A stretch of 38,658 nt of DNA from a virus. The stretch covers positions 1 to 38,658 of IMG/VR virus record IMGVR_UViG_3300005841_000018; one strand, given 5' to 3'. Positions 977 through 37,967 of this stretch are shown here, piece by piece. Position numbers and translations under genes: made by a program. The notes under the pieces were generated by a model. That model was given only the letters and a program-made list of their open reading frames with translations. It had not been told where the DNA came from and did no database searches. Position 1 is the first letter of the stretch. The number at the start of each line of letters is the position of its first letter.

Positions 977-978
977 AT

Positions 979-1642: not shown

Positions 1643-1647
1643 AGGAT

Positions 1648-1944: not shown

Positions 1945-1963
1945 AATCTATTTTGTTATTAGG

Positions 1964-2323
1964 TCAACTAACCATTATTTTCCTAACATCTAAACCGCCT
2001 TGTAATATGTGATCCAGCAACCCTGGCTTTTTACGCATCTTTAAAACCTCTTTCAATGACGGCCTAAACCATTCTTGAGTTGGTTTCAAGTTAGGTGCAA
2101 TGTCTTGGTAAAACGAACTATGAGCAATATTCCCGCAATGCTCACATGTATGAATAAAAGGAGTAACACCAGAATCAACATCAATAGTTTTCGTGATGAG
2201 ATTGCAAACTTGGCACATATAACAATTTACTCGATTGGAAAGATCAACTTTGTAAAAATCATTTGTTGCCACATCGTGTAGCAATGCTTTATATTTCCTT
2301 TCAATTTCCCGTTGACTATCCAT
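1964..2323 (-). CDS. Zinc-ribbon-containing hypothetical phage protein
   Basis: Two CxxC knuckles are visible, CYMCQVC and CEHCG, separated by about 20 residues that include GVTPFIHT: a zinc ribbon. The C-terminal half has EWFRPSL, which I recall next to this ribbon in other phage proteins of unknown role. Length 119 aa, ATG start. Position beside the replication genes suggests a nucleic-acid-related role, by inference only. Confidence 0.8.
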   Translation of the reverse strand: MDSQREIERKYKALLHDVATNDFYKVDLSNRVNCYMCQVCNLITKTIDVDSGVTPFIHTCEHCGNIAHSSFYQDIAPNLKPTQEWFRPSLKEVLKMRKKPGLLDHILQGGLDVRKIMVS

Positions 2324-2361
2324 ATTTTTTTTTGTTTAGTTACCCTCCAATTTCTCGTAGC

Positions 2362-3586: not shown

Positions 3587-4040
3587 TAAACTTTTTCTTT
3601 AATTCAGGTCTATAATTCTGATAATAATCATCAAGTTCTTCAACTGATTCAAAATCTGATGTATTCAAAAAGAAATGGAAATTTCTTATCTTGTATTTCT
3701 CTAAAACAGGAGCAGATATTTTTGTATCCTTTTCTTTTTTAAATTTTATGTGAATGAATAAATCTAAAAGTTCATATTCAGTAACATTTAATTCTCTCAT
3801 CGCACCCATCCAATTCACATTCTTAACTCGTTCATGACAATCTTCGCAATAAGTAACTAATGCATCGTCAGGGTATTCCCACGGCATTTTTCCTTTTTCA
3901 TAATATAGATGATGAACATGAAGTGTTTTTTCGGGAGAACAACAATGACGACATCGAAATCCATCTAATTCAAAGATATGCAAGCGTTTCTTTTGCCAAC
4001 GCGGATCTTTCAGTAATTCGATATATGCTTTATTACCCAT
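3579..4040 (-). CDS. HNH endonuclease
   Basis: Classic HNH architecture with zinc knuckles: CRHCCSPEKTLHVHHLYYEK, then PWEYPDDALVTYCEDCH. The HVHH contains the catalytic His; the CxxC pairs hold the structural zinc. After ~residue 75 follows a helical tail without known motifs. Length 153 aa. It sits inside the replication operon with 8-base overlaps on both sides, so it is either a homing nuclease or a recruited phage nuclease. Confidence 0.88.
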   Translation of the reverse strand: MGNKAYIELLKDPRWQKKRLHIFELDGFRCRHCCSPEKTLHVHHLYYEKGKMPWEYPDDALVTYCEDCHERVKNVNWMGAMRELNVTEYELLDLFIHIKFKKEKDTKISAPVLEKYKIRNFHFFLNTSDFESVEELDDYYQNYRPELKKKFNG

Positions 4041-4290
4041 TGCGAACGTCTGTCTTTAAATCCAAATAATGCTCAAGGAAAATGAGTATTAGTCTATCCA
4101 TTTCTTTATTCCAAGAGTCTGGATAATCCCAAACTTCGTAATTGAACTCACCTTCACCCTGAATTTTCTTAACCCTAGGTAGGCGGCTCATATCTTTGAA
4201 TTTATTGCTTATGTGAATTCCAACAATCATTAGAATCTTATTGTTGTAGGCTAATCCTAGGTGTTCAAAACGATCTTTTACTGTTGCCAT
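4033..4290 (-). CDS. Hypothetical protein, 85 aa
   Basis: A soluble protein with EVWDYPDSWNKEMDRLILIF near the C-terminus. No family recognised. It overlaps the HNH gene by 8 bases and follows the Cys-rich 109-aa gene after 2 bases. Confidence 0.78.
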   Translation of the reverse strand: MATVKDRFEHLGLAYNNKILMIVGIHISNKFKDMSRLPRVKKIQGEGEFNYEVWDYPDSWNKEMDRLILIFLEHYLDLKTDVRNG

Positions 4291-4292
4291 TT

Positions 4293-4622
4293 TTATACAA
4301 ACTTTATTGCGTTAAGACGACCCATCGCTCGAATTAGATTAGTTGAGAAATTGTCGTAAAAGCCCCGACAAACAATGTCCTTACCTTCAATTGTTCCTTT
4401 GTGGCATTGAAAATGTGAATCAGAACGATTGCATGATTTGATTAATTGCTTCATGCGTTGTGCGCTTACAATTCTATTCGGTGATAAAAGACATTGATCG
4501 CATTGTTTTTCTTTTACTTCAAGCATAAATAAAAATCCCTCGCTGTTATCAGGGTTACGGCCTTCAAACAACAAGGGAATTTTTAAATTTCTTTTCGCTC
4601 CGTAACAGCGTATCAAATTCAC
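4293..4622 (-). CDS. Cys-rich hypothetical phage protein, 109 aa
   Basis: GTG start. The cysteines form a clear pattern, CDQC near residue 40, a single Cys, then FQCHKGT and VCRGFYD, suggesting bound metal. I recall this CxxC...CHKGT...CRGFYD order in uncharacterised phage proteins. It is the first gene downstream of a good Bacteroidota-type promoter (4633-4662) and so heads the left-end sub-operon. The promoter box ends only 10 bases before the GTG. Confidence 0.78.
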   Translation of the reverse strand: MNLIRCYGAKRNLKIPLLFEGRNPDNSEGFLFMLEVKEKQCDQCLLSPNRIVSAQRMKQLIKSCNRSDSHFQCHKGTIEGKDIVCRGFYDNFSTNLIRAMGRLNAIKFV

Positions 4623-6266: not shown

Positions 6267-6451
6267 TTCGCAACAATTGAAGTAATATAAAGTAAAGCAA
6301 TTGCAAACATGGCTCCGATTAAGCAGGTGAAAACGGCAGCGATTAAAGGATTGAAGCCGTACAATTTCTGCCATTGCAATTCCTTGAACTTCCTTAATCT
6401 CTGTTCCTGTTCTCGGTATTCTAAGATGGTTTTTAGGTTTAGGTGGGTCAT
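6263..6451 (-). CDS. Small single-pass membrane protein, 62 aa
   Basis: A charged helical N-terminal half (EYREQEQRLRKFKELQWQK) is followed by a hydrophobic segment of about 22 residues (PLIAAVFTCLIGAMFAIALL) close to the C-terminus, giving a tail-anchored look. Function unknown. ATGA overlaps with both neighbours. Confidence 0.75.
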   Translation of the reverse strand: MTHLNLKTILEYREQEQRLRKFKELQWQKLYGFNPLIAAVFTCLIGAMFAIALLYITSIVAK

Positions 6452-6564
6452 TTGATAAGTTCTTTTACTGATTTAACTTTTGATTTAGGAATACGCATTA
6501 CTACCGTCTTTTCTTTCTTTGGACGGCCTGATCCTGGCCGTTTACCTCCGTGTTGTTTTTTCAT
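6448..6564 (-). CDS. Mini basic protein, GRPKK motif (RHH-like), 38 aa
   Basis: The sequence holds GGKRPGSGRPKKEKTVVMRI, the glycine/arginine-rich lead plus a TVVMRIPKSKV strand, then a helix. This order resembles the N-terminal part of ribbon-helix-helix DNA-binding proteins of phages and plasmids, here cut to the minimum. It fits exactly between two ATGA overlaps (6561-6564 and 6448-6451), strong evidence that it is translated. Confidence 0.68.
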   Translation of the reverse strand: MKKQHGGKRPGSGRPKKEKTVVMRIPKSKVKSVKELIK

Positions 6565-7001
6565 AAAAAAAGATGTTGTAAATTTTCCTTTATCATGTAT
6601 TCTTTCATGAATTGAATTTTATCAATACCACTATCGTTTATTCGTTTGCCCATGAAATCGTTAAATCTCATATCTCCATCGTTAATATAAATACCGTTAT
6701 CCATATCAAAAGCAAACTGGAAACAATCCATGCCGATACCGTAATCATCAGGTAATGGTTCTTTAAGTTTAAAGTATAATCCAAAATGTGCTGGCTCCAT
6801 AGTGAACATAAACGCTATTTTATCCAACAAATCTTCTGGTAATAATGGATCTGGATGATTCCAATAAGGTGATATTTTAAAATAGTCTTTGAGTGTCATA
6901 TAATCACAACATTTACTTTTACAAGTACAAGATTTATTGTAATGGTGGCTGCAAAAATTAGGAGGCCAAACATCATCAACAGGTTGTTTAATTAATTTCA
7001 T
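6561..7001 (-). CDS. Cys/His-rich hypothetical protein, 146 aa
   Basis: The N-terminal ~35 residues are metal-ligand rich (NFCSHHYNKSCTCKSKCCDY), followed by an acidic domain. No family recognised. I use the ATG at 7001 (MKLIKQP) rather than the in-frame TTG at 7013, because 6998-7001 forms an ATGA overlap and a GGGAGGT lies just ahead of it, a rare Shine-Dalgarno-like sequence in this genome. Confidence 0.75.
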   Translation of the reverse strand: MKLIKQPVDDVWPPNFCSHHYNKSCTCKSKCCDYMTLKDYFKISPYWNHPDPLLPEDLLDKIAFMFTMEPAHFGLYFKLKEPLPDDYGIGMDCFQFAFDMDNGIYINDGDMRFNDFMGKRINDSGIDKIQFMKEYMIKENLQHLFL

Positions 7002-7165
7002 AATACCTCCCAAAGTATATTCATTCCATCACATTCAACTATTTTTTCCCCGATATTGTAATTAACAATTTGTTTTGCTTGATCTAAAGTAAACCAACTA
7101 TCTAATCCAGTGCCAGCATTCAAAAATTTGCCATTTTCTTTTTGTATTCTGTAGTTCGCTTTCAT
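6998..7165 (-). CDS. Small hypothetical protein, 55 aa
   Basis: The short ORF reads MKANYRIQKENGKFLNAGTG at its start, with a later FTLDQAKQIV helix, which looks like a small beta-alpha protein rather than random translation. It couples to the 146-aa gene by an ATGA overlap and follows a noncoding gap that could hold a promoter. Function unknown. Confidence 0.68.
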   Translation of the reverse strand: MKANYRIQKENGKFLNAGTGLDSWFTLDQAKQIVNYNIGEKIVECDGMNILWEVL

Positions 7166-7273
7166 ATTCGTTTCGTTTAATTGTTATGTAAATATAAACG
7201 ATTCTTTTTGAATTATGTTACAATATTCAAGATTTATTTTTAAGGCTTGAAATTGGATAAATTTGGGCTATTT
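7166..7273 (-). promoter_or_regulatory. AT-rich noncoding gap, weak promoter candidate
   Basis: One of the larger gaps in the left arm. On the minus strand TATATTTA near 7190 is one base from TAnnTTTG, but I find no TTG at the usual distance (the nearest is about 24 bases upstream). A start point for the 55-aa gene is plausible but not shown. Confidence 0.25.
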
Positions 7274-7369
7274 TCACCAGTTTAAATCTTTGTCAAAGTC
7301 TTTGAAATAATAAAAAACAATATCCATGTAAAGTAAGAATAAAAGCGGAGGAAGGAGAAGTAAGATCAT
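7274..7369 (-). CDS. Tiny hydrophobic peptide, 31 aa
   Basis: Begins MILLLLPPLLFLLYMDIVFY and ends with a charged KDFDKDLNW tail. It would be a single membrane segment with a polar tail. Its ATG overlaps the MerR-like stop as ATGA (7366-7369), like most real neighbours here, but nothing else supports it. Confidence 0.4.
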   Translation of the reverse strand: MILLLLPPLLFLLYMDIVFYYFKDFDKDLNW

Positions 7370-7656
7370 AAGTGTATCGATTTAAGTTTCAATTTAGCTC
7401 CTTCAATTGTAAATTTTTCGGTTCTAAGAAGATATTTAATTTGATGAAATTGTGCTACTGAAGCTCTTGGGTAATGCCATGTATGACTTCCGGCCTTTCG
7501 ATAAACTTCGAATTGTGAAGCCCAAAAACGAACCGTTGTAGCTGTCTCACTAATTATTTTGCCTATCTGAGGAGCCGTAAAATAAACCTGTTGAATAGGC
7601 TCATTAATCCTAAGCGTCTTTACATATTTTATTTGTCCTCCCTGATATACTTTCAT
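7366..7656 (-). CDS. MerR-type DNA-binding protein
   Basis: Residues ~27-95 match the MerR HTH layout: YFTAPQIGKIISETATTVRF, then WASQFEV, the wing with HTWHYPRASVAQFHQIKYLL, and the closing FTIEGAKLKLK typical of Bacteroidota MerR proteins. There is no effector domain after the HTH, so it may act as an architectural regulator or excisionase-like factor. No integrase is visible. ATGA overlaps at both ends. Confidence 0.75.
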   Translation of the reverse strand: MKVYQGGQIKYVKTLRINEPIQQVYFTAPQIGKIISETATTVRFWASQFEVYRKAGSHTWHYPRASVAQFHQIKYLLRTEKFTIEGAKLKLKSIHL

Positions 7657-7850
7657 GCAAAATAATATTCAGAATATCGTTTACCGTTCTTATTTGTCAC
7701 TAATCTGGATTGAATAGGATAACCAAGTTTTTTTATCTCAGGCGCCCTTGAGTTGATTGTCATGAAGCCAAACTTTTGATAGCATGTTAAGCGCGTTAGC
7801 TTACGGCCGAAGGGTTTGAGGTAGCGGATTATAATTTCATTCTGACTCAT
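7653..7850 (-). CDS. HTH_39-type phage DNA-binding protein, 65 aa
   Basis: The frame LTRLTCYQKFGFMTINSRAP, IKKLGYPIQSRLV and the basic KNGKRYSEYYF wing match the small winged-helix domain (HTH_39-like) that tailed phages carry near replication or recombination genes. It likely binds phage DNA or adapts replication factors. ATGA overlaps on both sides. Confidence 0.72.
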   Translation of the reverse strand: MSQNEIIIRYLKPFGRKLTRLTCYQKFGFMTINSRAPEIKKLGYPIQSRLVTNKNGKRYSEYYFA

Positions 7851-8038
7851 TTTGTATTGATTAAATTCAACATCATGCGATTTGGATGGTCGAATGTTAA
7901 AATAAGCTTATCTAATCGTTCTCTGGTTTCTTTTGAATAGATGTCACTATCATACCAGAATCTATTGGTAAGCCAAAATCCGCGTCTTAAATAAGGATGG
8001 CGCGCGCTTTCCGATGAACTTGCTTTGTTTGTTTTCAT
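7847..8038 (-). CDS. Hypothetical protein, 63 aa
   Basis: A small basic protein with HPYLRRGFWLTNRFWYDSDI and a helix with ERLDKLILTFDHP. No family recognised. Translationally coupled to the HTH gene (overlap 7847-7850) and preceded by an AACCTATG start context seen at several genes of this arm. Confidence 0.7.
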   Translation of the reverse strand: MKTNKASSSESARHPYLRRGFWLTNRFWYDSDIYSKETRERLDKLILTFDHPNRMMLNLINTK

Positions 8039-8045
8039 AGGTTAT

Positions 8046-8504
8046 TTATTTTACGACTATCCATTCAACTCCAGGGGCAATATCATTCTTTAAAGCCATG
8101 CAAAGTTTCCATTTCAGCCTCCACACTTCCTGCTCCATGCCTTTTACTTCGATGTATTGTTGGCTCCCATCTGTTAATGTCACAACAAAATCGATGTAAT
8201 AATTACAGATATGAACTCCATTTACTTTAATATCTATTTTGTGTTGCCTTTTCCATTCTTTAACTTCACCGGCTTTGATTCTCCAATCAAGTTGTTTTGC
8301 ATAATTCGCTTCGAGTTTGGATTGAAACCACATGCCGTTGTAGTCTGTTCGTGTTGATTTAATTCTCGGCTCATTTTCAGATTTTGAATTAGTTGGTCTA
8401 GCTGATCCACAGTAAGCGCATTTCTCATCCTCTTTATCGTTTATTCGTTTGCATGAACAAATCCACCGTTTTTCTTTTTTGAATCTTGTTTGAAAGAAAC
8501 TCAT
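8046..8504 (-). CDS. Zinc-ribbon DUF1064-type PD-(D/E)XK nuclease
   Basis: Residues ~13-37 form a RanBP2-like zinc finger (WICSCKRINDKEDEKCAYCG). From ~58 comes a DUF1064 nuclease: FQSKLEANYAKQLDWR, then YYIDFVV and YIEVKGME, the D and ExK active-site residues of the PD-(D/E)XK fold. The family is thought to act in phage recombination or resolution. It sits two genes after RecT, linked by ATGA overlaps, which supports a partnership with it. Confidence 0.83.
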   Translation of the reverse strand: MSFFQTRFKKEKRWICSCKRINDKEDEKCAYCGSARPTNSKSENEPRIKSTRTDYNGMWFQSKLEANYAKQLDWRIKAGEVKEWKRQHKIDIKVNGVHICNYYIDFVVTLTDGSQQYIEVKGMEQEVWRLKWKLCMALKNDIAPGVEWIVVK

Positions 8505-8881
8505 GCTTTTAAAGAATTCTCCAATTCGCTTTTATAAAGGCTGATGCATGTGCGATAATAATCAAGCTGATGTGCTATAGCTGCATTCAATCGGTCAGCG
8601 TATTCATAAGTAGCCAGCTCCATTCCGCATTCACCATCGGCTATTTTAAGAAGCACTGAGGCTTGATAATCCTTTCCATCTGAAAGCCTTTTGATGGCTG
8701 TCATTCGCGCGTTCTGTAAATGCTTTTGTGCTGCTGCCATACATTCCGCACTCAGGCCCATAATAGAGGCTAATTTTTTGCCTTGCTCGACAACTGAGTC
8801 AATGTCAAGGCCGCTAATATCTAGATCTACTATTGCGCGAATAGATGCTAAATTTGATTCTATATTTTCTTTTGTTGTCAC
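8501..8881 (-). CDS. Hypothetical recombination-module protein, 126 aa
   Basis: A mostly helical protein (GKKLASIMGLSAECMAAAQK, then KDYQASVLLKIADGECGMEL). It lies between RecT and the DUF1064 nuclease with ATGA overlaps on both sides. I do not recognise a family; position suggests a helper in strand annealing. Confidence 0.75.
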   Translation of the reverse strand: MTTKENIESNLASIRAIVDLDISGLDIDSVVEQGKKLASIMGLSAECMAAAQKHLQNARMTAIKRLSDGKDYQASVLLKIADGECGMELATYEYADRLNAAIAHQLDYYRTCISLYKSELENSLKA

Positions 8882-9717
8882 TTTTTGCGTTGGTCAACAT
8901 AGTAATCATCCTTATCGGCAGCGTTTTTTGCCGCATGTCCAATCTCTGTAACTGTATGTGGAGTATTCAATCCTTTCCTTACAAGTTTTTCCTCTTCAAT
9001 TTTCATCCTAATTAAAGCATTAGCCTCTAAAAAATTTTCTGAATTTTGTTCTTTAGTCCAATTATCCGGCATTAATTTAGGATCAATTGAGCCAGTAATT
9101 TGTTCGAGGTTGCTAAGTAGAAGTAAGTAGGTCGTTTTGAGTTGATCGCAATCATAAATAGTTTGAGCTTGTGTATCGATCACTTCTTCAATTGTTTGCA
9201 TACCCATAAGCAAGTCAGGACAATGAAGTCGACCAAAGAAAGCGGCAGCGCGATATTTAAACATTTGCTCAGGCATTGTTTTCCATTTGCTTCCGGGTTT
9301 ATCAAGCCAGCCTTCTGCCTTTACCATTTTCATGGTAACCTTTGTTCCTTCTTTATCGGTTGATTTATCGATTTTTAAAGTCTTAGCCAAATAACCGTAA
9401 TCATCACCATCCCCTGATTTTTCAAATTGCAATTCAGAAGCAAAGCGTTTCGAGTTATTGATAATCCCGATTACAAATTGACCGCTCCAACCTGGATTAC
9501 CTTTTACTATGTAAAGATTCTGCATTACCATAAGCGGACTTATATTCATTCGGTTGCTCATCTCCATTGCTATCATTACGTTCTCAACTTTGCCCCGATA
9601 AACTTCAGGGATAAGACTTGATTGGGCCAGCATCTTCGCTACTCGTTGGGCGTGTTCAAAATTCTGCAAAGAGAATGCGCTTTCATTTATTGGTTTTTCT
9701 AATTGGTTTGTCTCCAT
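8878..9717 (-). CDS. recT: RecT-family single-strand annealing protein
   Basis: The core shows the RecT pattern: NFEHAQRVAKMLAQSSLIPE, ENVMIAMEMSNRMNISPLMV, NPGWSGQFVIGIIN, then WKTMPEQMFKYRAAAFFGRL and a GMQTIEEVID closing helix. RecT pairs complementary single strands during phage recombination and replication. At 279 aa it has normal length, with a divergent charged tail. No RecE-type exonuclease is next to it; the DUF1064 nuclease two genes on may act instead. Confidence 0.93.
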   Translation of the reverse strand: METNQLEKPINESAFSLQNFEHAQRVAKMLAQSSLIPEVYRGKVENVMIAMEMSNRMNISPLMVMQNLYIVKGNPGWSGQFVIGIINNSKRFASELQFEKSGDGDDYGYLAKTLKIDKSTDKEGTKVTMKMVKAEGWLDKPGSKWKTMPEQMFKYRAAAFFGRLHCPDLLMGMQTIEEVIDTQAQTIYDCDQLKTTYLLLLSNLEQITGSIDPKLMPDNWTKEQNSENFLEANALIRMKIEEEKLVRKGLNTPHTVTEIGHAAKNAADKDDYYVDQRKK

Positions 9718-19231: not shown

Positions 19232-20985
19232 GCTTAACGGTAACACAACGTCCTAATCAAAGCGGTGTTTGGGTAGCTGCTAAGAATCCGGTCATCTATA
19301 AAATGACTCGGAAGGATTTTGTTTGGTCAACTCTTGTTAATAGTGGTGGTAATACTGCAATTCAAATAGCAACTGATGTAACAACTTCATTTATAGTAGG
19401 TGATATTATTTGGCTTCAATCTGATGATGGAGCATATAGCGTAAGCGGGACAGTAGTTAGTTCAGCTTATGTAATAGTTACCACTGTTATTACTACAGTG
19501 CCTTATGTTGCCAATAATGCCTCTGGTTATATTAATATAATCAGTCGTAGGCCAAATTACTATGTAGGAGTAGGAGTTTATAGGGCTACGCTTAACACTT
19601 TAATCGGAACTGTAAACTATTATCCCACAACAGTAGGGCTTTTAACTATCGATGTTTCTTCGGTTCTTCTTTCTATTTTAGACCCATCTATTTCAATCGC
19701 CATAGGTGAAAAGTTTATAGAAAATGCCAGCGACATTTCAACTGCTGTTAAAGACTTTTATATTAAATATACTGAGTTTTGGACAGGATCAGGCAATAGC
19801 GCGACTGATGATGTAGCAAATATTTCTTATGGAGTATTAGCCGCAAATCAGATAGGCCAATCAGGATATCTAACCACCACTACTTTTCTAACAAAATTCG
19901 ATTCATTGAAAATAATGATGGGTGAATTTTATTGCATCTCATTTGCAGATACTGCTGGATCTACTTCATTGCTTATTAAAAAATCATGGTATGATCCGTC
20001 AGGGACTTTATACGCATCCAGTTACGCGATTAGCATCCCATTTGGCGGATCGGTAAAATCAATCTATACTTATTCACAAGCATTAAGTAGTAATTTCTCA
20101 ACCATGCTTAGCTGGAGAGAACTATTGACGCCATACATAAATATCGATGCTGGAACATCATGGTCTTTTTTCCCTACAGCAATCACAACAGCAGCAATGT
20201 CTAAATGGGGATCAGCTTTATGTTATGTCCCTAGCGGAATAACGTTTGATATTTATTGGACAATACAAATAAGCGGAAGTGCTGCAACATATCAATTAGA
20301 ATTAGGTTGGTTTGATACTAACGGTACTATTATAAGCTCTAGCGTAATATCAACAGGCACAGTACCATCAGGGACTATTTCTGGAACTAAATCAATAACA
20401 CCAGGATCAAATGTGCAATATGTTGGATTAAAATTATCGCCAACCGCTGCCGGTAACGTTACCGCAGGAGCTACAGCATTATATTTAGTTATTCCTAATA
20501 CAAAAAATAGACTTGATTTCAGAGCAGCGAGTATTCCTGCAACGTTGCCATACGCGGAAACGGATATAACGACTTCAATAAGTTCTTTAATTGTTCCGGC
20601 ATGTAATGCCATTACTTTATTTTGGCGTAATAGTAAAGGTGGAGAAAGTTCATGGTCATTCGGATACACTCAAGATTCTGTACAGAAATTACAAGATCCA
20701 TTTAAGAATACATGGCTAACTCTTTATGAGCAGAATTTAACTTTGGCGCAATTTAATGCACTCAATGAATTGTTTTCTGTTAATCAAGTTTATCAAACTC
20801 CGATTATTGAATTGACCACATCAGTAGATAAAACCGAAGCTAAAGTAGGTCAACAGGTTTACACGGTTGACACTAGTGGCAATAAGATTGGTGTTATAGT
20901 GATAGGAGGCGAGAATAAGACCAGAACAAGAAACAAAAGACATTCTTTCCAGGTGACAATAGAACTTCCTGAAATATTCGGATGA
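19228..20985 (+). CDS. Large tail structural protein, 585 aa
   Basis: A Ser/Thr/Gly-rich all-beta protein with sequence such as PNYYVGVGVYRATLNTLIGT and a C-terminal domain with NKRHSFQVTIELPEIFG. No catalytic motif. Length, composition and its place between completion proteins and the tape measure suggest a distal-tail or baseplate-like component. Coupled by ATGA to both neighbours. Confidence 0.65.
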   Translation: MSLTVTQRPNQSGVWVAAKNPVIYKMTRKDFVWSTLVNSGGNTAIQIATDVTTSFIVGDIIWLQSDDGAYSVSGTVVSSAYVIVTTVITTVPYVANNASGYINIISRRPNYYVGVGVYRATLNTLIGTVNYYPTTVGLLTIDVSSVLLSILDPSISIAIGEKFIENASDISTAVKDFYIKYTEFWTGSGNSATDDVANISYGVLAANQIGQSGYLTTTTFLTKFDSLKIMMGEFYCISFADTAGSTSLLIKKSWYDPSGTLYASSYAISIPFGGSVKSIYTYSQALSSNFSTMLSWRELLTPYINIDAGTSWSFFPTAITTAAMSKWGSALCYVPSGITFDIYWTIQISGSAATYQLELGWFDTNGTIISSSVISTGTVPSGTISGTKSITPGSNVQYVGLKLSPTAAGNVTAGATALYLVIPNTKNRLDFRAASIPATLPYAETDITTSISSLIVPACNAITLFWRNSKGGESSWSFGYTQDSVQKLQDPFKNTWLTLYEQNLTLAQFNALNELFSVNQVYQTPIIELTTSVDKTEAKVGQQVYTVDTSGNKIGVIVIGGENKTRTRNKRHSFQVTIELPEIFG

Positions 20986-25884: not shown

Positions 25885-26826
25885 ATGGCAGCAAGTCCCG
25901 TACTAACCAGTAATTATAATGGCGATGTCCTTGATTACATTATTACAGAAACAGTAGTAGGAAACGAAGCCGTTGACAAAGGCTCTGTTTATGTAATCCC
26001 TGACGTTCCCTCAAAGTTGAGCATTGCAAAAATGGTTTCAACGGCCAACCCGATTATCGACCGGGAGGCCATGCCGACAACCAAGTCAGCAACCGTAACA
26101 TGGAGTGAAGCTACGCTTACGCCTGTGGAAATGATGATTTATATCCCCGATATTAATCCTCGGATTTTCGAAGCAGCTTGGAGGCCCTTCCAACCCAAAG
26201 GCGCTCTCCCTAACAAAGTTTTGGATCCAAATATCCAGAAAGTATTTGCAGATGTTGTTATCAAACAAGCTCAAAAGCAAGTTGGGAAAATTATCTGGCA
26301 AGGTGATAGCACTCTCGCATCTACCAATCCGTTGCACTTTTTCAATGGATTTTTTACCCGCGCAGCTTCAAGCTCTACGAATATTGACGTTACGAACTTG
26401 GGAACTATCACAACTGCTAACATCCAAGCAATCTTAGAATCTTGTCAACAATCTGTACCGGATGCTTTATTTGATGATCCTGATATGGTTTTCCACATGA
26501 ACACCGGTGATTTCAGAAAGTATCAGCAATCAGTAAGACAACTTTCTTATAAGGGTCAAGGCCCTGCCGAAGATGTGCCAGCTGAGTATGGCGGTCGTGA
26601 GATTCGTTATTATAGCCAGGCACCGGCGAATAAAATCCTTGTTGCAAAAGCAACTACCGGTACAGATTCTAATTTCTACGCAGCCGTAGATAAACAGAAT
26701 GATATGGAGAATTTTATTATCGAAAAACTCCGTCCTGAAGGTGAACATTATTTCTTGAAAGCACTTTTCAAGATGGATGCAAACTTCTCTATCGATAGCG
26801 AGTCAGTTTATTACGCAGGTTCTTAA
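25885..26826 (+). CDS. Major capsid protein
   Basis: 313 aa, no long N-terminal prodomain, consistent with a separate scaffold in the upstream protease. Features PDVPSKLSIAKMVSTANPII and ATVTWSEATLTPVEMMIYIP, an HK97-like E-loop and P-domain layout; the C-terminal part has EHYFLKALFKMDANFSIDSE. The gene is codon-richer in C and G than its neighbours, as is common for highly expressed capsid genes. Confidence 0.85.
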   Translation: MAASPVLTSNYNGDVLDYIITETVVGNEAVDKGSVYVIPDVPSKLSIAKMVSTANPIIDREAMPTTKSATVTWSEATLTPVEMMIYIPDINPRIFEAAWRPFQPKGALPNKVLDPNIQKVFADVVIKQAQKQVGKIIWQGDSTLASTNPLHFFNGFFTRAASSSTNIDVTNLGTITTANIQAILESCQQSVPDALFDDPDMVFHMNTGDFRKYQQSVRQLSYKGQGPAEDVPAEYGGREIRYYSQAPANKILVAKATTGTDSNFYAAVDKQNDMENFIIEKLRPEGEHYFLKALFKMDANFSIDSESVYYAGS

Positions 26827-29206: not shown

Positions 29207-30367
29207 ATGATATATGGTTACAAATACGAACCGTTATTAATTCGCGTACCGACCTGGATAGATAGACGATTCCAGATTCAGGGTTACGATGCAGACAATC
29301 TTTACCCACAGCGAGCCAAAGAAGCCAAGAACAGAAGCTATACTGCTAAAAGAGCTTGTCATACATATGGTGAGTTTTTAAATGGAGAAGGATTCACCGA
29401 TTCCAAATTATCCTCATTAATAGTCAATCGTAAAGGCCATACAGGTAATGATTTTTTAGATCATATCTGTAATTCCGCATCTTGGGCCAACGGATTTTTT
29501 ATTCATGTTGGTTATAATCTTAATTATAAAGTCAATTCAGTAAAAGTTTTGGATTTCGAGTTTAATAGGTTCGGACTCCCTGACGATGAAGGGGATTTTG
29601 AGTTAATAAAATATTCTACTAACTGGGAAAGAAATCCTTATAAGACAATCAAATCCGTTCAGGAAATTTGTGATTACCATGTTTTTAATCCAGATCCGAA
29701 TGTGGTCAAAGACCAGATTGAACAAGCTGGCGGGATTTTAAATTACAAAGGCCAAATATTCTATTGGACTCCTGAAGAAGGGCAATACCCGAAGGCTACT
29801 TTCGATACAGTATTTGATCAAACACAAACTCAAGCAGAAATAGGAATATTTGATCTTGCAATGGAACAGAATGGATTTAGAGCGCAGCATATTATTGGCT
29901 ATCCTGGGAAATTTGACACAAGACAAGACGAACAAGAATTTAAAGATGGCATTAATTCATTTTCAGGACAAGGAGGAGGAGGAGTGCTTGTAATAGAAAA
30001 TCCTGACGGTCAATTAAAAATGGCCGATATGGTCACCTCTTTGCAAATGCAAAATACAGGAGATCTACATGTAAGTGTTGATAAAAGAGTGCGCGATGCA
30101 ATACGTCTATCTTTCGGAATGCCAGCTGAAATTCTTGCAGAGATGCCAGAAACCGGTATGTTCAATCAGCAACAGATGACAGATGCATATACTTATTACA
30201 ATTCTATTACCCGGTCGATGAGAAGCACAATTTCAAGACAGGTAAAGAAGATTTTTGATAACTGGTATATACCAATAACTGAAGATTTTTCAATCATAGA
30301 GCAAAAATATGCTGTTAGTGTTACGGTTCCTTCGAATACTCCATCTAAACAAGTAGCAAATGGTTGA
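29207..30367 (+). CDS. Portal protein
   Basis: 386 aa, with YGEFLNGEGFTDSKLSSLIV near the start, and FGMPAEILAEMPETGMFNQQ followed by the QMTDAYTYYNSITRSMRSTI helix near the end: the 'lRIsfgiP..ll...etG.fn...' pattern of phage portals. It forms the ring through which DNA enters. Unusually it comes after capsid and tube genes. ATG at 29207; an ATG at 29203 is in another frame. Confidence 0.78.
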   Translation: MIYGYKYEPLLIRVPTWIDRRFQIQGYDADNLYPQRAKEAKNRSYTAKRACHTYGEFLNGEGFTDSKLSSLIVNRKGHTGNDFLDHICNSASWANGFFIHVGYNLNYKVNSVKVLDFEFNRFGLPDDEGDFELIKYSTNWERNPYKTIKSVQEICDYHVFNPDPNVVKDQIEQAGGILNYKGQIFYWTPEEGQYPKATFDTVFDQTQTQAEIGIFDLAMEQNGFRAQHIIGYPGKFDTRQDEQEFKDGINSFSGQGGGGVLVIENPDGQLKMADMVTSLQMQNTGDLHVSVDKRVRDAIRLSFGMPAEILAEMPETGMFNQQQMTDAYTYYNSITRSMRSTISRQVKKIFDNWYIPITEDFSIIEQKYAVSVTVPSNTPSKQVANG

Positions 30368-30947
30368 AGTATATCTCATAACGCAAGCTGATATACAGAA
30401 ATTTCATCCTATGGGTGATCTTCCACAGGGTAGAATTGATCCGTTTATAATTCAGGCACAAGAATTGGATTTAAAACCAGTTTTGAATGATTCATTGTAT
30501 TATGATTTCACTACAAAGTATAATACTTCAACCGATCCAATGTATAATGCCTATCAAACTCTTTTAAATGGTGGGACTTATATTTATTCTGGCCAAACAA
30601 TTCAATATCCTGGAATAAAACCAATGCTAGTAGCTTATACTTTGTCGAGATTTTTCCCAATGAATCAGGTTAATGTTACTCGATATGGAATTGTGAATAA
30701 AAAAAATGATCAAAGTGAGCCGGTGAGCACGACTCAAATAACTTATATTGTTAATGGCCTTCGCGCTCAGGCAATAGGTTATCAAAATCAATTAGAACAG
30801 TTTCTTTTACAGAATCAAACTACTTATCCTTTATATGGATCTTTCCCATCTTCGGTAAATCAGCGAACCGGAGTTAAAATAATTAATTCAGCGAGATATA
30901 GTCAGGGAAGATATAGAGGGTGGTGGAATGGAAATTGGTACGATTAA
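30360..30947 (+). CDS. Head-tail connector-like (DUF6712-type) protein
   Basis: 195 aa. DIQKFHPMGDLPQGRIDPFI, IQAQELDLKPVLNDSLYYDF and PGIKPMLVAYTLSRFFPMNQ match a connector type I associate with Bacteroidota phages. The end is rich in Tyr/Trp/Arg. It overlaps the portal gene by 8 bases. Confidence 0.7.
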   Translation: MVEVYLITQADIQKFHPMGDLPQGRIDPFIIQAQELDLKPVLNDSLYYDFTTKYNTSTDPMYNAYQTLLNGGTYIYSGQTIQYPGIKPMLVAYTLSRFFPMNQVNVTRYGIVNKKNDQSEPVSTTQITYIVNGLRAQAIGYQNQLEQFLLQNQTTYPLYGSFPSSVNQRTGVKIINSARYSQGRYRGWWNGNWYD

Positions 30948-30959: not shown

Positions 30960-31244
30960 ATGGCAACAGCGTGTAAATTGGGTGAGGAAATAACGGTTGA
31001 CGGAACTGCGGTGGAATATCTTATTACGGAAACTAATATTCTTTTAGAGAAAGCGCCAACTACTTTGAATATTACTTTGAGTACTAATTCTGGAACTATA
31101 CAATTTGCTGTTGGCGAAACTCCACCGTCTGCACAAAAAGCGTGGTCTACAGGCACATCTTTTGTAATTCATGGTGTACAAAATGGATTATTTAATTTGT
31201 GGGCCAAGGGAAGTACAACTGGCCAAAAGTTTACTATTACATGA
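30960..31244 (+). CDS. Small beta-rich structural protein, 94 aa
   Basis: Contains YLITETNILLEKAPTTLNIT and an end SFVIHGVQNGLFNLWAKGST. It could be an adhesin or decoration domain. ATGA overlap with the next gene. Confidence 0.65.
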   Translation: MATACKLGEEITVDGTAVEYLITETNILLEKAPTTLNITLSTNSGTIQFAVGETPPSAQKAWSTGTSFVIHGVQNGLFNLWAKGSTTGQKFTIT

Positions 31245-31906
31245 TCGCAGTAACAGCAGATCCTACAAGGGATGTTACTTTATATTTCCGAATTAATAGG
31301 GATGGCGCTATCATATTTTCTTTTTTTGATTCGGATGACAATGAATTAGATTTATCACAATATTCATTAGTCGTTAATTTTAAAAGAAGAAAAAATGATA
31401 TTACAAATTTTCTACAATTAACGCCTGCCATTTCTGGAAATAACGCTACGTTAACAATGACTAAAGCAAATTCTGCTACATTTCGGGAACAGACTTTTTT
31501 TTATGAGATGGTAAGAACAAAAGCAGGATTTGAAAAAAATTGGCTCACAGGAGATGCTATTTTTCACATGGGTAAATTTGATGGGGTCACAAATGCAACA
31601 GAAACATTTATAAATTCTTTTGATGATATGTTACGAATAACAATTGATGAAGTTGGCGCATCTTCGGCTGGAACTTTAATACTTAAAGGCGCGTGGAATG
31701 CGTCTACTAATACAGTTCCTAGTAATGGAGATTCAACAATATTACAGGGATTCACATATAATAATGGAAATCATTATAGTACGACTTTATTAAGTCCTGA
31801 TGGTAATGTAATTCTGCCATATGCAATAATCACAGCCTTAATCGATGGCCCAGGCCCACTTCTTAACGATCCTACAAAATGGAGTTTAACTTATCCAGTA
31901 TCATGA
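31241..31906 (+). CDS. Baseplate/receptor-binding protein, BppU-like N-terminus
   Basis: 221 aa from the ATG at 31241 (ATGA overlap). The first ~120 residues (LYFRINRDGAIIFSFFDSDD, then LSQYSLVVNFKRRK) resemble the immunoglobulin-like domain at the N-terminus of baseplate upper proteins, which holds fibres onto the tail. The rest is beta-rich with a repeated NGNHYSTTLLSPDGN-like motif. Confidence 0.62.
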   Translation: MIAVTADPTRDVTLYFRINRDGAIIFSFFDSDDNELDLSQYSLVVNFKRRKNDITNFLQLTPAISGNNATLTMTKANSATFREQTFFYEMVRTKAGFEKNWLTGDAIFHMGKFDGVTNATETFINSFDDMLRITIDEVGASSAGTLILKGAWNASTNTVPSNGDSTILQGFTYNNGNHYSTTLLSPDGNVILPYAIITALIDGPGPLLNDPTKWSLTYPVS

Positions 31907-33483
31907 AAAAATTACTTTTACTTTTATTACTCATTCCTACTTTGTCCTTTGGGCAAAAGAACGTAGTTCAATTACAGACTCAGAATCATAGTCAAATACT
32001 TTTAAAAAGTCCATCATCACTGAGGTCTTATAACATGAATGATAGCATCATTCAGAGTTCTGTTAATTTGCTTGGTTCTTATGCTAATCCAAGTTGGATA
32101 ACTTCACTTGCCAATACAAAGATTACTGGTCTCGGCACACTAGCTACTTTAACTCCAGGTACTGGTGTAGCGACTGCTTTAGGTGTAAATATAGGAAGTG
32201 CAGGGGCACCTGTTTTATTTAATGGCGCAGGAGGTACACCATCCTCATTAAATCTTAATAATGCTACAGGAACGCCCACACTTACAACTCCTGTCTTTAA
32301 CGGACTTCCTACAGGAACCGGTGTAGCATCAGGAGCGACAGTTTCAACGTTAGCTGCACGAGATGCTAATGCAAATTTATCCGCGAACAATTTTCAACCT
32401 GGTTATACTACAACGGCGACAGCAGCAGGAACGACCACATTAACTGTATCAAGTACATCAGTTCAATATTTTACGGGTACGACAACTCAAACGGTATTAC
32501 TTCCTGTTACAAGTACTTTGTCAACTAATCCTCAAACCATATTCACGATAATCAACAATAGCACCGGTATTGTAACGGTACAGAGCTCAGGCGGTAATAC
32601 CATTATCCCGATGACACAAGGATCAACTCTTATCGTGTCATGCATCTCTACTTCTGGTACTGGAACAGCCTCTTGGAACTCTCAATATTATCCTGCACTA
32701 CCGTCTGGTGCAGCGGTTGGCGATATATTTGATGTTTCTGCAATATCAGGTGGAGCACCAACTCAATTCGCAAGGATACCAGGCGGAACATCTGGGTATG
32801 TTCTTACCGCTAATGGAGCTGGAGTAGCTCCTACGTATCAACCAGCAACAGGGGGATTAACGTCAAGCTCTACAAATCAAATACCCGTTTATACGTCATC
32901 AAGTACTGCAGCAGGAAGTTCAGAACTTACTTATTCTTCAAGAGCATTATTATTTGGCACTACAGCCTCAGGAACGGATTCATTTAACTTTGGAGGTTCA
33001 TCAGATGGATTTGATCTAAATTTTTCGACTGGTCAATTCAAATGGAAAACCAATAGCACACACTGGCCTGAGATATGGAGTGATAATAAATTCAGGGAAG
33101 CACACTTTTCAAACCTTACAACTTTAACAGAATCAAGTGCAACTTCATTTGGTCGAGTAACGATAAGCGCAAGCGAATATGCAACAGGAGAAATATTAGT
33201 TGGAGTTCAAGCTAATGATGGAACAGATTTTCAGGCTCTTTCTACAAGATTTCAATTTAATGCAGTTAGAAAGGGTGCGACTACTACCATAAATATTGAA
33301 ACTCCGGTACAGCCCGCGTGCGCGTGTAGCACTGGTACATTAACGGTAACTATTACAGCAATTGATTCCGGTAGCGGAAATATTGATTTTAAGGCAAACG
33401 CGGTGAGTAGTTTAACTCAAACTGCTTTGCAAGCTCAATTCTTTATCAATAAAATTTTCCGTGGAACCGCAGTAACACAATAA
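31903..33483 (+). CDS. Tail-fibre-like protein with a Sec signal peptide
   Basis: 526 aa. The N-terminus MKKLLLLLLLIPTLSFGQKN has a full signal peptide with the Gly-Gln junction common in Bacteroidota. The remainder is Gly/Ser/Thr-rich beta repeat sequence like phage fibres (LTPGTGVATALGVNIGSAG), with a C-terminal part holding SNLTTLTESSATSFGRVTIS and a CACS tetrad. ATGA overlap with the previous gene. A fibre that is exported is unusual. Confidence 0.75.
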   Translation: MKKLLLLLLLIPTLSFGQKNVVQLQTQNHSQILLKSPSSLRSYNMNDSIIQSSVNLLGSYANPSWITSLANTKITGLGTLATLTPGTGVATALGVNIGSAGAPVLFNGAGGTPSSLNLNNATGTPTLTTPVFNGLPTGTGVASGATVSTLAARDANANLSANNFQPGYTTTATAAGTTTLTVSSTSVQYFTGTTTQTVLLPVTSTLSTNPQTIFTIINNSTGIVTVQSSGGNTIIPMTQGSTLIVSCISTSGTGTASWNSQYYPALPSGAAVGDIFDVSAISGGAPTQFARIPGGTSGYVLTANGAGVAPTYQPATGGLTSSSTNQIPVYTSSSTAAGSSELTYSSRALLFGTTASGTDSFNFGGSSDGFDLNFSTGQFKWKTNSTHWPEIWSDNKFREAHFSNLTTLTESSATSFGRVTISASEYATGEILVGVQANDGTDFQALSTRFQFNAVRKGATTTINIETPVQPACACSTGTLTVTITAIDSGSGNIDFKANAVSSLTQTALQAQFFINKIFRGTAVTQ

Positions 33484-35019
33484 ATGAAAAAGTTATTCTT
33501 ATCATTTTACATCCTAGCTTCATTTTGGTGTAGTGGCCAAAATGTAATGATGCCTGGCAGTATATCTGTACCCGTTCCTTATTCCACGTTTAGCGATGTA
33601 GCAGGATGGTGGAGGGCTGATACTTTTACCGGATCAGCCGGAGGTTATAGCATTACAGATTTAAGCGCGAATGGTAACGCAATGTTGCAACAGGCGGGAA
33701 CATTAACGCCAGGCACAGGTGTAAACAGCAAAGCAAAGTTTACGGGTAATGCAGCAGCTTATCTAAACTCAAATCTTGCTATAAGAAATTGGCCGTGTAC
33801 AATCATTACGATTGCTGTTAGAGCTAATAATGCAACATGCGGTTTCTTCGGTCATTCAGGGTCAAACCCAACAGCCACTTTGTGGACTGGTTATGAAGCT
33901 AGTAACCAAAACTCTACTTATAATAATAATAGAACAAATAATACTACTTCAGAGGCAGGAAGTATAACGGCTTACGGAACTTGGATAGGTTGGGGTTCGC
34001 GTGTGGTTACTATGAATGGCCTGATTCAAACAGACCACCCGCTAGCAACTACTACACAATCATCGCCAATTAGCACATCTCTCGGCACTCAGTATCGTGG
34101 ATTCAATAGTGATTGGTACGAAACATTGGTTTGGAATAGATGCCTAAGCCTTAGCGATTTGGATGAGGTGTACACTTATATCAACACACGGTATGGAATG
34201 TCAATTCCTCTTTGGTCTAGTTACACAGGAGTGAATGTAATTTTTGTATGGGGCCAATCCAATGCCGCTGGAAGGGGGATAAAAGCCGCATTAAATCCTC
34301 CCTATAGTGGCGCTCAGACTAATGTGTTTGTGTGGACTAATGTTGCTGATTACACCTCAACTGCTGGATCGTCATGGGCAACACTAGATGAGTCGGCCTT
34401 CAACAATGATCTTGGTGACGCACAAGGGAATCTTTATTATGGTTATGAAGCCAGCCTTCCACAAAATTATATTAACCGAGTTGGAGGGAGCGTTTATCTA
34501 TTCAAGTTTGCGCAAGGCAACACATATCTAAATAATCAAGGAGGAGCATTGCCTTTTTGGGATGCTGTAGATAACACGGTTTCGCAGAATGCGAGTGTTA
34601 GGTTGTATCAAGGGTTTATGACTAACTGGGTAAATGCGCTAATTAATTTTCAGACGAATAGCAAGCGCCCAATAGGAAAAGTTATTATTGGAACACACGG
34701 CGAAAACGATGCTATAAATTCAACAGCGGCTGGGAACTACCAAACCAATCTTATTAATTTTTATCAGACCATCGTTCCTGAATTACGAGTCGGCACGAGT
34801 CTACCTATAATTATCACACGGTTACCAAATGGCCAAGATCCTGCCAATGAGACTTCTTTAAGTACAGTACAGACAGCCCAAACAAATGCCGCTGCCACTT
34901 TGCCTAATTGCACATTGTTCAATACAGATTCTTATGCTTTTAATAGTGGATCGGGGCCGCATTGGAGTAATGCAGCTTATATACAAATAGGAATTGATTT
35001 AGCGGCATTGATTAATTAA
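33484..35019 (+). CDS. LamG-like plus SGNH acetyl-esterase protein with a signal peptide
   Basis: 511 aa. Signal peptide MKKLFLSFYILASFWCSGQN, then a LamG-like/concanavalin domain (~45-235; VAGWWRADTFTGSAG, WPCTIITIAVRAN), then a SASA-type SGNH hydrolase: GQSNAAGRG (~255-263, with catalytic Ser), GTHGEND (~402) and PHWSN (~491, His). This enzyme type removes acetyl groups from surface sugars, which suits a receptor-modifying tail spike. It starts right after the previous stop. Confidence 0.8.
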   Translation: MKKLFLSFYILASFWCSGQNVMMPGSISVPVPYSTFSDVAGWWRADTFTGSAGGYSITDLSANGNAMLQQAGTLTPGTGVNSKAKFTGNAAAYLNSNLAIRNWPCTIITIAVRANNATCGFFGHSGSNPTATLWTGYEASNQNSTYNNNRTNNTTSEAGSITAYGTWIGWGSRVVTMNGLIQTDHPLATTTQSSPISTSLGTQYRGFNSDWYETLVWNRCLSLSDLDEVYTYINTRYGMSIPLWSSYTGVNVIFVWGQSNAAGRGIKAALNPPYSGAQTNVFVWTNVADYTSTAGSSWATLDESAFNNDLGDAQGNLYYGYEASLPQNYINRVGGSVYLFKFAQGNTYLNNQGGALPFWDAVDNTVSQNASVRLYQGFMTNWVNALINFQTNSKRPIGKVIIGTHGENDAINSTAAGNYQTNLINFYQTIVPELRVGTSLPIIITRLPNGQDPANETSLSTVQTAQTNAAATLPNCTLFNTDSYAFNSGSGPHWSNAAYIQIGIDLAALIN

Positions 35020-35443: not shown

Positions 35444-35683
35444 ATGGCAAAAGAAAAATTCGAATCGTACTCCCCCGTCTATTCTCATAAGCCATCCGAT
35501 AGAGTTTTGGAATGGCTTGAGAAGATGAGCGGAAAAGGGAGCGTTATTTACATTGATGAATCCGATGTAAATATTCAATCCTCTAAGCCATCTAAAGAGT
35601 TGCTAAATTTGTTGGAAGGATTTGATGAATTCAATCTTCAATCTGGAACACCACCACCACCACCAAATCCTCCTAAACTTTGA
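35444..35683 (+). CDS. Hypothetical protein, 79 aa, Pro-rich tail
   Basis: A helical, charged protein with a C-terminal PPPPPNPP stretch, encoded by a CACCAC repeat. No family recognised. Starts 1 base after the holin-like stop. Confidence 0.65.
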   Translation: MAKEKFESYSPVYSHKPSDRVLEWLEKMSGKGSVIYIDESDVNIQSSKPSKELLNLLEGFDEFNLQSGTPPPPPNPPKL

Positions 35684-36081
35684 GATGGATTTACTTTTTG
35701 TTGCTTTCTATTTTCATCTTTCGGGTTGCGTGGGCCGCATTGCCTTATGACACTGAATCGATCGATTGGTATTGGCTATCGGAGGAAAAGACAACGGCAC
35801 AATTTGGATTTTGGAGATTGATGTTATTTTTGGTTGAGGGAGTTTTAATGCTATGCATAATGGGTGTAGCTTATGAAACCGATCCGGCAAAAAAATATCA
35901 TGCTTACCAGATGGCGAGAACACTGTTGTGGATTCAGGGTTGGTACATTTTAGAATACTGCATACACTACACTTCTGTTTGGATCACATGGGAACAATTA
36001 GGATTTATTGGAAATGAACGAAGTGGATTATCCAGTCACATTATTACAATGGCTATCTTTGCATACTTCGGACATGATTAA
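35680..36081 (+). CDS. Multi-pass membrane protein, 133 aa
   Basis: TTG start (TTGA overlap with the previous stop). Hydrophobic segments IYFLLLSIFIFRVAWA, LMLFLVEGVLMLCIMGVA and the end SHIITMAIFAYFGHD. No family recognised. Likely part of the lysis or envelope module. Confidence 0.55.
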   Translation: MRWIYFLLLSIFIFRVAWAALPYDTESIDWYWLSEEKTTAQFGFWRLMLFLVEGVLMLCIMGVAYETDPAKKYHAYQMARTLLWIQGWYILEYCIHYTSVWITWEQLGFIGNERSGLSSHIITMAIFAYFGHD

Positions 36082-36262: not shown

Positions 36263-36543
36263 TTTTTCTGCAAGCAATAACAAAGGACGGGGCAATATCT
36301 GCAGATTACATGCTAGTCATTGTAATTGGTATTTGTGGGTTTTTAATTATTGCTATCGCAAGTTTCGCATTCTATACGATAAATAAGAATCTTGAAAATA
36401 TGCGCACTGATTTCAATAATAGTATTACGGTAATGGGGAAGGACTTCTCAGAATTCAGAAAGGATTTTCATACTTTCGTACAAATACAGGCGGGATTAAA
36501 TGCAAAGTTTGAAGAAAGAACAAAAGACCATGAATCTAAATGA
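36259..36543 (+). CDS. TM plus coiled-coil protein, 94 aa
   Basis: One membrane segment (YMLVIVIGICGFLIIAIASF) then a long helix with heptad-like spacing (NKNLENMRTDFNNSITVMGK). Also spanin-like; the two neighbouring TM-coil genes may work together. ATGA overlap upstream. Confidence 0.55.
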   Translation: MIFLQAITKDGAISADYMLVIVIGICGFLIIAIASFAFYTINKNLENMRTDFNNSITVMGKDFSEFRKDFHTFVQIQAGLNAKFEERTKDHESK

Positions 36544-37048
36544 TCAAATATCAAAATGGAAGGATATCCCTGGCTATGAAGGGTTTTATCAGATTTCCAA
36601 TACTGGGCTAATCAAAAATATTAAAAGAAGTAGGCATCTATGTTTATCTAAAAATGGTGGTGGATATTATAAAGTTAAATTACGATATGGCAAAAAGAGA
36701 GATGCCGCAGTCCACAGATTAGTTGCTGAGACTTTTATTGAAAATCCCTTATGCCTTCAACAAGTCAATCATATCAATGGGATTAAAACCGATAATCGAG
36801 TTGAAAATTTGGAATGGTGTACACCTCAAGAAAATATAACACACGCTATTCAAATTGGATTAAAAAATACAATTGGTTCAAATAATGGTTCTGCTAAATT
36901 ATCCGAATCTGATGTTGAAGAAATTTTGCAATTAGATAGAATGTATGGATTAAGAACAAGAGTTATCACAAAAGAATATCATGTTCATAAATCTTCTGTG
37001 GAACGAATTAAAAATAATATTACATGGAAAAATATTATTAGGCCATGA
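36530..37048 (+). CDS. NUMOD4-HNH homing endonuclease
   Basis: A NUMOD4 motif (WKDIPGYEGFYQISNTGLIK) is followed by an HNH region (VHRLVAETFIENP, VNHINGIKTDNRVENLEW) and a C-terminal HTH-like part (GLRTRVITKEYHVHKSSVER). I use the ATG at 36530. Its first 28 bases match the first 28 of the following endolysin gene (about 23 of 28), a trace of insertion at that gene's start. It overlaps neighbours on both sides, so translation of the lysis genes continues through it. Confidence 0.85.
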   Translation: MNLNDQISKWKDIPGYEGFYQISNTGLIKNIKRSRHLCLSKNGGGYYKVKLRYGKKRDAAVHRLVAETFIENPLCLQQVNHINGIKTDNRVENLEWCTPQENITHAIQIGLKNTIGSNNGSAKLSESDVEEILQLDRMYGLRTRVITKEYHVHKSSVERIKNNITWKNIIRP

Positions 37049-37527
37049 ATTCACAAGATAAAATATCAAAATTTGTAAGCTTCGGTGAAGCGATAAGGAG
37101 TGAAACAGCGTCAAGGCTTAATATTCCAAACCTACCGGATGAGCACCAACTAGCAGCCATGAAATACGTGGCTAGTCAAATTTACGACCCCCTGAGGGAA
37201 CATTTCGGGCCAATTCATGTAAACTCATTTCTAAGGGTTCCTGCACTTAATAATTCAACGCCAGGATCAAGCAAGACAAGCGCACACATGAAAGGAGAGG
37301 CTATAGATATGTCTCTTCTGGGACGAAACGCGGAGGTTTTTAAGTATGCTTTGAATCTTAAAGACTCATTAGATTTCGATCAGATGATTTGGGAATTTGG
37401 AGATAAAGCAGAGCCGGCATGGGTTCATATCAGCAAAAATGCTGTTCAAAAGAATCGAAAAGAAGTTTTACGTGCTTACCACGATCAGGATGGTAATATT
37501 AGATATGTGCCATTTGACTTATTTTAA
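37045..37527 (+). CDS. Endolysin, M15-type peptidase
   Basis: 160 aa. Peptidase M15 pattern: VNSFLRVPALNNSTPGSSKT, then SAHMKGEAIDMS (~79-90, zinc His and Asp), FDQMIWEFGD and WVHIS (~126, third ligand His). This enzyme cuts peptide bonds of the cell wall. No export signal, so a holin must let it out. ATGA overlap with the HNH gene. Confidence 0.9.
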   Translation: MNSQDKISKFVSFGEAIRSETASRLNIPNLPDEHQLAAMKYVASQIYDPLREHFGPIHVNSFLRVPALNNSTPGSSKTSAHMKGEAIDMSLLGRNAEVFKYALNLKDSLDFDQMIWEFGDKAEPAWVHISKNAVQKNRKEVLRAYHDQDGNIRYVPFDLF

Positions 37528-37529: not shown

Positions 37530-37967
37530 ATGGGTAATCCAATAATAGACTTCTTTGTAGGTAAAGGTAGCAACATAGTTAAAATCGTTGCTGATAAACT
37601 AGGAATGGATAAGGTTCAAGCCGCCCAATTCCAATTAGAATATCAAAAAGAAGCTCAGGCTATGGATATGGCAGAGCTTGATATGGCAAAATCTACCATT
37701 ATCGCTGAAGCTCAAAGCTCTGACAAATGGACTTCGAGAGCGCGGCCAAGCTTTATGTACGTAATGTATTGCATTATCTTGGCTTCAATTCCTATGGGCA
37801 TTATCACTGCTATTAATCCACAAGTGGCAATTAATATTTCAACAGGGTTCAAATCATGGCTTGCCGCTATACCAGATTCTATGTGGGCTTTATTTGGAAC
37901 TGGTTACGTTGGTTATTCGGTTTCCAGAAGCTATGATAAGCACATGGAAAAGAAGTTCGGTAAATAG
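37530..37967 (+). CDS. Holin, 3TM type
   Basis: 145 aa. A helical N-terminal half (MDKVQAAQFQLEYQKEAQAM) is followed by WTSRARPSFMYVMYCIILAS and the segment ALFGTGYVGYSVSRSYDKHM, the pattern of 3TM holins (GTA_holin_3TM-like), in which the N-terminal helix leads into membrane hairpins. It ends the rightward operon; its stop is immediately next to the stop of the opposing gene. Confidence 0.78.
   Translation: MGNPIIDFFVGKGSNIVKIVADKLGMDKVQAAQFQLEYQKEAQAMDMAELDMAKSTIIAEAQSSDKWTSRARPSFMYVMYCIILASIPMGIITAINPQVAINISTGFKSWLAAIPDSMWALFGTGYVGYSVSRSYDKHMEKKFGK

Follow-up and report, generated by a model that had tools for sequence, protein, structure and literature searches.

How do tail fibres, which are usually held to join the virion inside the cytoplasm, come to carry export signals? 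The question is raised by two adjacent genes, fibre 1 and fibre 2, of the virus record IMGVR_UViG_3300005841_000018 (38,658 bases; the whole stretch is called the window below), which we assign to a tailed phage of Bacteroidota because of its capsid and portal similarities and its signal peptides with Gln after the cut (Q-rule). The best explanation, in our judgement a probable one, is that receptor-binding fibres are exported, processed in the periplasm and docked on virions at or after lysis.

Signal peptides and domains of the two fibre proteins

The two genes and their parts are listed below, where a slash marks the predicted cut.

31903..33483, + strand: fibre 1, 526 amino acids
31903..31953, + strand: Sec signal peptide of fibre 1, MKKLLLLLLLIPTLSFG/Q, a rule-based call from the sequence, compared with shuffles
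31954..33483, + strand: predicted mature fibre 1, 509 amino acids plus stop, Thr/Ser/Gly-rich and fibre-like, 43% identical to the signal-peptide fibre of relative L003
33484..35019, + strand: fibre 2, 511 amino acids
33484..33537, + strand: Sec signal peptide of fibre 2, MKKLFLSFYILASFWCSG/Q, called in the same way
33538..35019, + strand: predicted mature fibre/spike 2, 493 amino acids plus stop, with an N-terminal region that is LamG-like by eye, then an esterase domain
34234..35007, + strand: SASA (SGNH-type acetylesterase) domain, fibre 2 residues 251-508 (Pfam PF03629, E 2.8e-11)

The coordinates 31903-33483 and 33484-35019, both on the + strand, had been given by the first-pass annotation of this DNA and are correct. 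The natural start of fibre 1 is 31903, because this ATG shares bases with the stop codon of the gene before it (ATGA); position 31879 offers a longer alternative. The fibre 2 ATG directly follows the fibre 1 TAA, with no gap. Both N-termini have the sequence features of a Bacteroidota substrate of Sec and signal peptidase I, namely a Lys-rich n-region, an uncharged hydrophobic core, small residues before the predicted cut (SFG/Q in fibre 1, CSG/Q in fibre 2) and Gln at +1, and the mature ends would read QKNVVQLQ and QNVMMPGS. Gln occupies +1 in about 71% of Bacteroidota signal-peptidase-I substrates (PMC10653852). Signal peptides were called with an explicit Q-rule criterion devised for this analysis, which was passed by two of the 53 window open reading frames (ORFs) of at least 100 amino acids, precisely fibre 1 and fibre 2. 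Shuffled proteins gave 0.06 qualifying ORFs per window, and two were reached in 0 of 300 shuffles. A cruder shuffle of the N-termini gave 0.8 expected matches, a figure that is overgenerous, as this shuffle left the hydrophobic composition of the signal peptides intact and included nested starts in the count. The signal peptides reported in the first pass are thus Q-rule sites far above chance, and Sec export of both fibres is well supported; cleavage of the signal peptides and periplasmic residence in the window phage we infer.

The SASA domain scored 43.9 bits against a curated cut-off of 24.8, and its GQSN, GEND and GPHW motifs are present. An SGNH-type domain occurs only in the second protein; fibre 1 gave no Pfam or PHROG match. 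A single-sequence structure prediction of fibre 2 was unusable (predicted local distance difference test score 31), a PDB sequence search returned no match, and searches of phages and viral contigs found no relatives of the two fibres themselves. No C-terminal sorting domain of the type IX secretion system (T9SS) was matched in the fibres with Pfam or NCBIfam, and neither has a lipobox: FWC in fibre 2 lacks a small residue before the Cys, and fibre 1 has no Cys in the region. Therefore, the fibres would probably stay periplasmic until lysis. The first-pass proposal was that export serves to coat or strip the host surface or to remove acetyl groups before release; its export part stands, whereas action on the surface of the producing cell is disfavoured by the same lack of a T9SS domain and lipobox.

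Signal-peptide fibres in cultured phages and relatives

Tandem mass spectrometry (MS/MS) evidence on virion composition, in the form of the depositors' annotations in GenBank records, is available for cultured Cellulophaga phages. In phi10:1, the structural annotation covers gp091-gp094, four neighbours that all have Q-rule signal peptides, and also gp087, gp088, gp090, the portal and the capsid protein, which have none. With phi19:1 gp101-104 and phi18:3 gp085-087, which have the same virion annotation and all carry signal peptides, there are 11 such proteins in the three phages, 10 of them with Gln at +1. The opposition between virion protein and exported protein on which the first pass relied therefore looks false, and retention in the virion, its last alternative, appears by analogy with the Cellulophaga annotations to be the best-supported reading. 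Likewise, gene position and relatives suggest that both window fibres belong to the virion.

These annotations bear on the reading in which the two proteins are not virion parts but secreted effectors that, outside the cell or on its surface, digest or mask glycans, block re-infection or free progeny from a matrix. Such effectors would account for the signal peptides and the esterase domain. Moreover, two exported phage proteins, Llp of T5 and Spackle of T4, counteract superinfection or incoming tails. Phages of Porphyromonas gingivalis, too, encode Q-rule proteins of unknown function (PMC10367356). However, the fibres have no T9SS domain or lipobox for such a role, their genes are coupled to a baseplate-like gene in a late operon, which also speaks against superinfection exclusion, and the Cellulophaga counterparts are MS/MS-annotated virion proteins in the fibre slot. 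We consider secreted effectors unlikely.

Because the fibres themselves gave no relatives, loci were collected with the portal as anchor and so were not selected for signal peptides. The two closest relatives that reach the fibre region have signal peptides on fibres at the same position. In L002 (portal 81% identical) the fibre starts with MKMLKYLFLLLPFFSFA/Q. L003 (portal 82%) has two signal peptides, MKKIILGLLIFSSIASFG/Q and MKKMIFLLLLSHWCFG/Q, the latter on a GDSL esterase; the L003 fibre starts at ATG 2630, and fibre 1 and the L003 fibre differ in their mature N-termini and have the middle part in common. Among more distant loci, L025 encodes a 1,247-residue pectate-lyase-like spike starting with MKKLIFLLLLIPAIVKA/Q (cut PAIVKA/Q), L022 a 240-residue protein with a signal peptide, and L021 a fibre with a signal-like ending, RCSA/Q, behind a longer start; the signal peptides of L025 and L021 were called by eye and are missed by the strict rule.

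The signal-peptide fibre/tailspike cassette is found in Assiduviridae, Pachyviridae and Duneviridae, families that have no core proteins in common (PMC8776804), and it is sometimes nearly unchanged (phi10:1 gp093 versus phi19:3 gp088, 97%). Tail proteins with ordinary N-termini occur in 11b, P12002L, P12024S, Danklef and phi13:1 and among the FCL-2 tail genes; signal-peptide fibres are thus common among flavophages, not general. The spike part of gp093 is 49% identical to phi17:2 gp054 and 44% to phi14:2 gp097, both structural proteins with ordinary N-termini and no signal peptide, and in phi46:3 gp081 the gp093 spike is joined to a gp094-type signal peptide. In Nekkels_1, the signal peptide and about 110 mature residues are 95% identical and a different C-terminus stands behind them. 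Such an arrangement, with a docking end that is conserved and a tip that varies, is usual for fibres and is clear in Cellulophaga phages. Signal and N-terminus being kept while tips swap, the export signal would seem to travel together with the docking end.

Several other genes in phage loci carry signals of their own or stand near the head genes. L023 and L024 encode two small tandem proteins with strong Q-rule signal peptides directly 3' of the capsid gene (7076-7480 and 7477-7860), possibly exported head decoration or effector proteins. In L022, a gene run 5' of the head genes (257-4596) has N-termini resembling glycosyltransferases and a methyltransferase, and the N-terminus of a capsid-position protein (6426-7655) is hydrophobic and resembles a signal peptide; capsids with signal peptides have been mentioned for P. 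gingivalis phages (PMC10367356). Bacteroides phage p00 (L040) has a hypothetical protein with a Q-rule N-terminus two genes past the capsid gene (20053-20439). In Maribacter phage Colly_1 (L063), a gene annotated 'tail fiber' (6923-8929) has a lipoprotein-type signal (LVGC), and behind it, at 8962, lies the gene of an OmpA-like protein whose signal peptide fits the Q-rule.

Evidence for periplasmic transit and points against it

Indirect signs of export are the +1 Gln kept on unrelated mature sequences, the absence of early in-frame starts and the rarity of a glycosylation sequon. The first in-frame start of phi10:1 gp091, gp092, gp093 and gp094 is codon 77, 44, 66 and 79, respectively; therefore, a signal-less product would lose the start of the conserved N-terminus. 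The sequon D(S/T)(A/I/L/V/M/T) directs periplasmic O-glycosylation in Bacteroidota (PMC8550257, PMC12871550) and is said to be nearly fully used and frequent in host non-cytoplasmic proteins (PMC12871550). In an exploratory test on partly related proteins, it was completed at 25 of 106 D[ST] sites in signal-bearing fibres. Structural proteins that lack a signal peptide had it at 88 of 207 sites (p 0.0012), and fibre/tail proteins that lack one had it at 62 of 155 (p 0.007; protein-level label permutation, p 0.011). With Ser admitted at the last position, as a review allows, the depletion reached p 0.00013, and no difference was seen when N, E, G, S, T, A, K or Q replaced Asp. In the homologous spike domain, the signal-bearing copies have no sequon and the two plain copies have one each. 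Avoidance of the sequon by signal-bearing fibres would thus point to passage through the periplasm. The idea that export serves to gain O-glycans was rejected, the sequon being depleted instead of enriched, and disulphide formation is unsupported as a purpose, with few Cys in most fibres.

Several observations weigh against exported fibres that end up in the virion. The sequon depletion, besides the exploratory nature of the test and the partial relatedness of the proteins, stems from the Cellulophaga set (17 of 86); in the window-type set the count was 8 of 20 (p 1.0). In L005 and L008, whose portals are 61-65% identical, the fibres in the same region are without a signal peptide; they are esterase-like, by a Pfam GDSL match in L005 and by eye only in L008. 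The lineage can therefore do without the trait, and signal-bearing and plain fibres substitute for one another within it. Fibre 2 has in-frame ATGs at codons 22-23, which could yield a signal-less form. Finally, co-purified vesicles or cell debris, or uncleaved N-termini, may underlie the MS/MS annotations.

Three further readings were weighed. The downstream ATGs of fibre 2, together with an ATG at codon 28 of L003 fibre 1, would permit a dual product, an exported precursor plus a cytoplasmic virion form. In phi10:1 gp091-gp094, however, the next in-frame starts come only after the initial stretch of the mature N-terminus, and we regard a dual product as very unlikely. An N-terminus that is left uncleaved and serves the virion as anchor or membrane-active segment would score alike in composition, as would any hydrophobic N-terminus; yet almost every case has small residues followed by Gln at exactly +1, and the mature N-termini behind the cut are unrelated to each other. 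This points to Q-rule processing and not to an anchor, and the sequon avoidance suggests periplasmic transit, so that this reading is, in our view, very unlikely. The proteins might also be host secretory proteins of recent capture, their signal peptides being useless relics, or their detection in virions might be contamination. SASA and lyase domains are found in cellular proteins too, and Bacteroidota secretory proteins obey the same Q-rule (PMC10653852). Against relics or contamination, the signal peptides are kept in diverged cassette copies, the fibres are depleted of the O-glycosylation motif, which is reported to occur often in non-cytoplasmic proteins of the host (PMC12871550), and the cassette is positioned like fibres in three phage families; we strongly doubt this explanation. 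None of the four rivals fits the virion annotation, the Q-rule and the modular exchange together as well as exported fibres docked on virions do.

Gene order, proposed route and known systems

The fibre genes lie in the tail/late module, in the order portal, adaptor, baseplate-like gene, fibres and lysis genes, as expected of fibres or spikes.

14963, + strand: terminase
22603, + strand: tape measure
24730, + strand: ClpP-type protease
25885..26826, + strand: probable major capsid protein, about 30% identical to the Bacteroides phage p00 capsid protein
29207..30367, + strand: portal protein (phrog_11226, E 1.5e-53)
30360..30947, + strand: DUF6712 protein 3' of the portal, probable head-tail adaptor (Pfam, E 5.3e-25)
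31241..31906, + strand: baseplate/adaptor-like gene without a signal peptide, 56-71% in alignment to L002/L003 (from which its start was inferred), weak phrog_1084 match
37045..37527, + strand: peptidase M15 endolysin, 3' of the fibres
37530..37967, + strand: holin (GTA_holin_3TM; Pfam, E 7.1e-19)

The portal is 27-30% identical to those of Bacteroides and Parabacteroides phages. No transposase was found among the early genes scanned, and a Mu-like transposable phage, an idea from the p00-like capsid, was rejected; two genome scans revealed no prophage relatives of the window phage. Between the fibres and the lysis genes lie a NUMOD4/HNH homing-type endonuclease gene (36500..37048, + strand) and a membrane-type ORF with a TTG start (35680..36081, MRWIYFLLLSIFIFRVAWA), possibly an extra lysis or membrane protein. 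L003 has a counterpart of this ORF near 7250.

In the proposed route, both fibres, as receptor-binding fibres or spikes, would be made as Sec precursors, signal peptidase I would remove the 17-18 residue peptide and expose Gln, and host glutaminyl cyclase would convert it to pyroglutamate. Folded fibres, with no lipobox or T9SS domain for onward transport, would accumulate in the periplasm until holin and M15 endolysin open the envelope and heads and tails assembled in the cytoplasm meet them. The fibres would dock via the mature N-terminus, and the baseplate-like product of 31241..31906 is perhaps their docking partner. At the next adsorption, fibre 2 may deacetylate a surface glycan. Docking at envelope opening is presumably the simplest account that joins export with presence in the virion.

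Whether Sec export, periplasmic finishing and late docking form a separate assembly route of tailed phages, carried by an exchangeable cassette across unrelated Bacteroidota families, we consider evenly balanced. If so, the adsorption proteins of some Bacteroidota phages mature in another compartment, with docking necessarily late, and are exchanged as a module among phages that are not related; nor need a phage depolymerase with a signal peptide be a free secreted enzyme. We found no statement in the open-licence literature that tailed-phage fibres are exported before docking, and earlier notice elsewhere is possible; export before mounting thus seems, as far as we found, undescribed for ordinary tailed phages.

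The nearest parallels are the cassettes of Cellulophaga phi10:1, phi19:1 and phi18:3, Ingeline and Nekkels, in which fibre/spike genes likewise stand side by side and almost all encode a Q-rule Sec signal peptide. They differ in having no tblastn-detectable homology to the two window proteins and in carrying pectate-lyase-like spikes instead of a SASA esterase. Signal peptides on the Ingeline and Nekkels lyases have been mentioned, with no mechanism offered (PMC8776804). The Q-rule secreted proteins of P. gingivalis phages also use the host Q-rule Sec pathway, but they are presented as possible host modifiers of unknown function and not as tail fibres (PMC10367356). T4 Spackle (gp61.3), whose signal cleavage has been demonstrated (PMC7650644), and T5 Llp are phage proteins exported with a signal sequence, yet they are small periplasmic or lipoprotein inhibitors, not fibres. 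Esterase-bearing fibres in the tail module are shared with L005 and Cellulophaga phi13:1 gp024 (SGNH/GDSL), which have no export signal at the start. The filamentous phage coat proteins pIII and pVIII are virion proteins with Sec signal peptides; they are assembled in the membrane during extrusion, with no lysis, whereas the window phage is tailed and encodes a holin and an endolysin.

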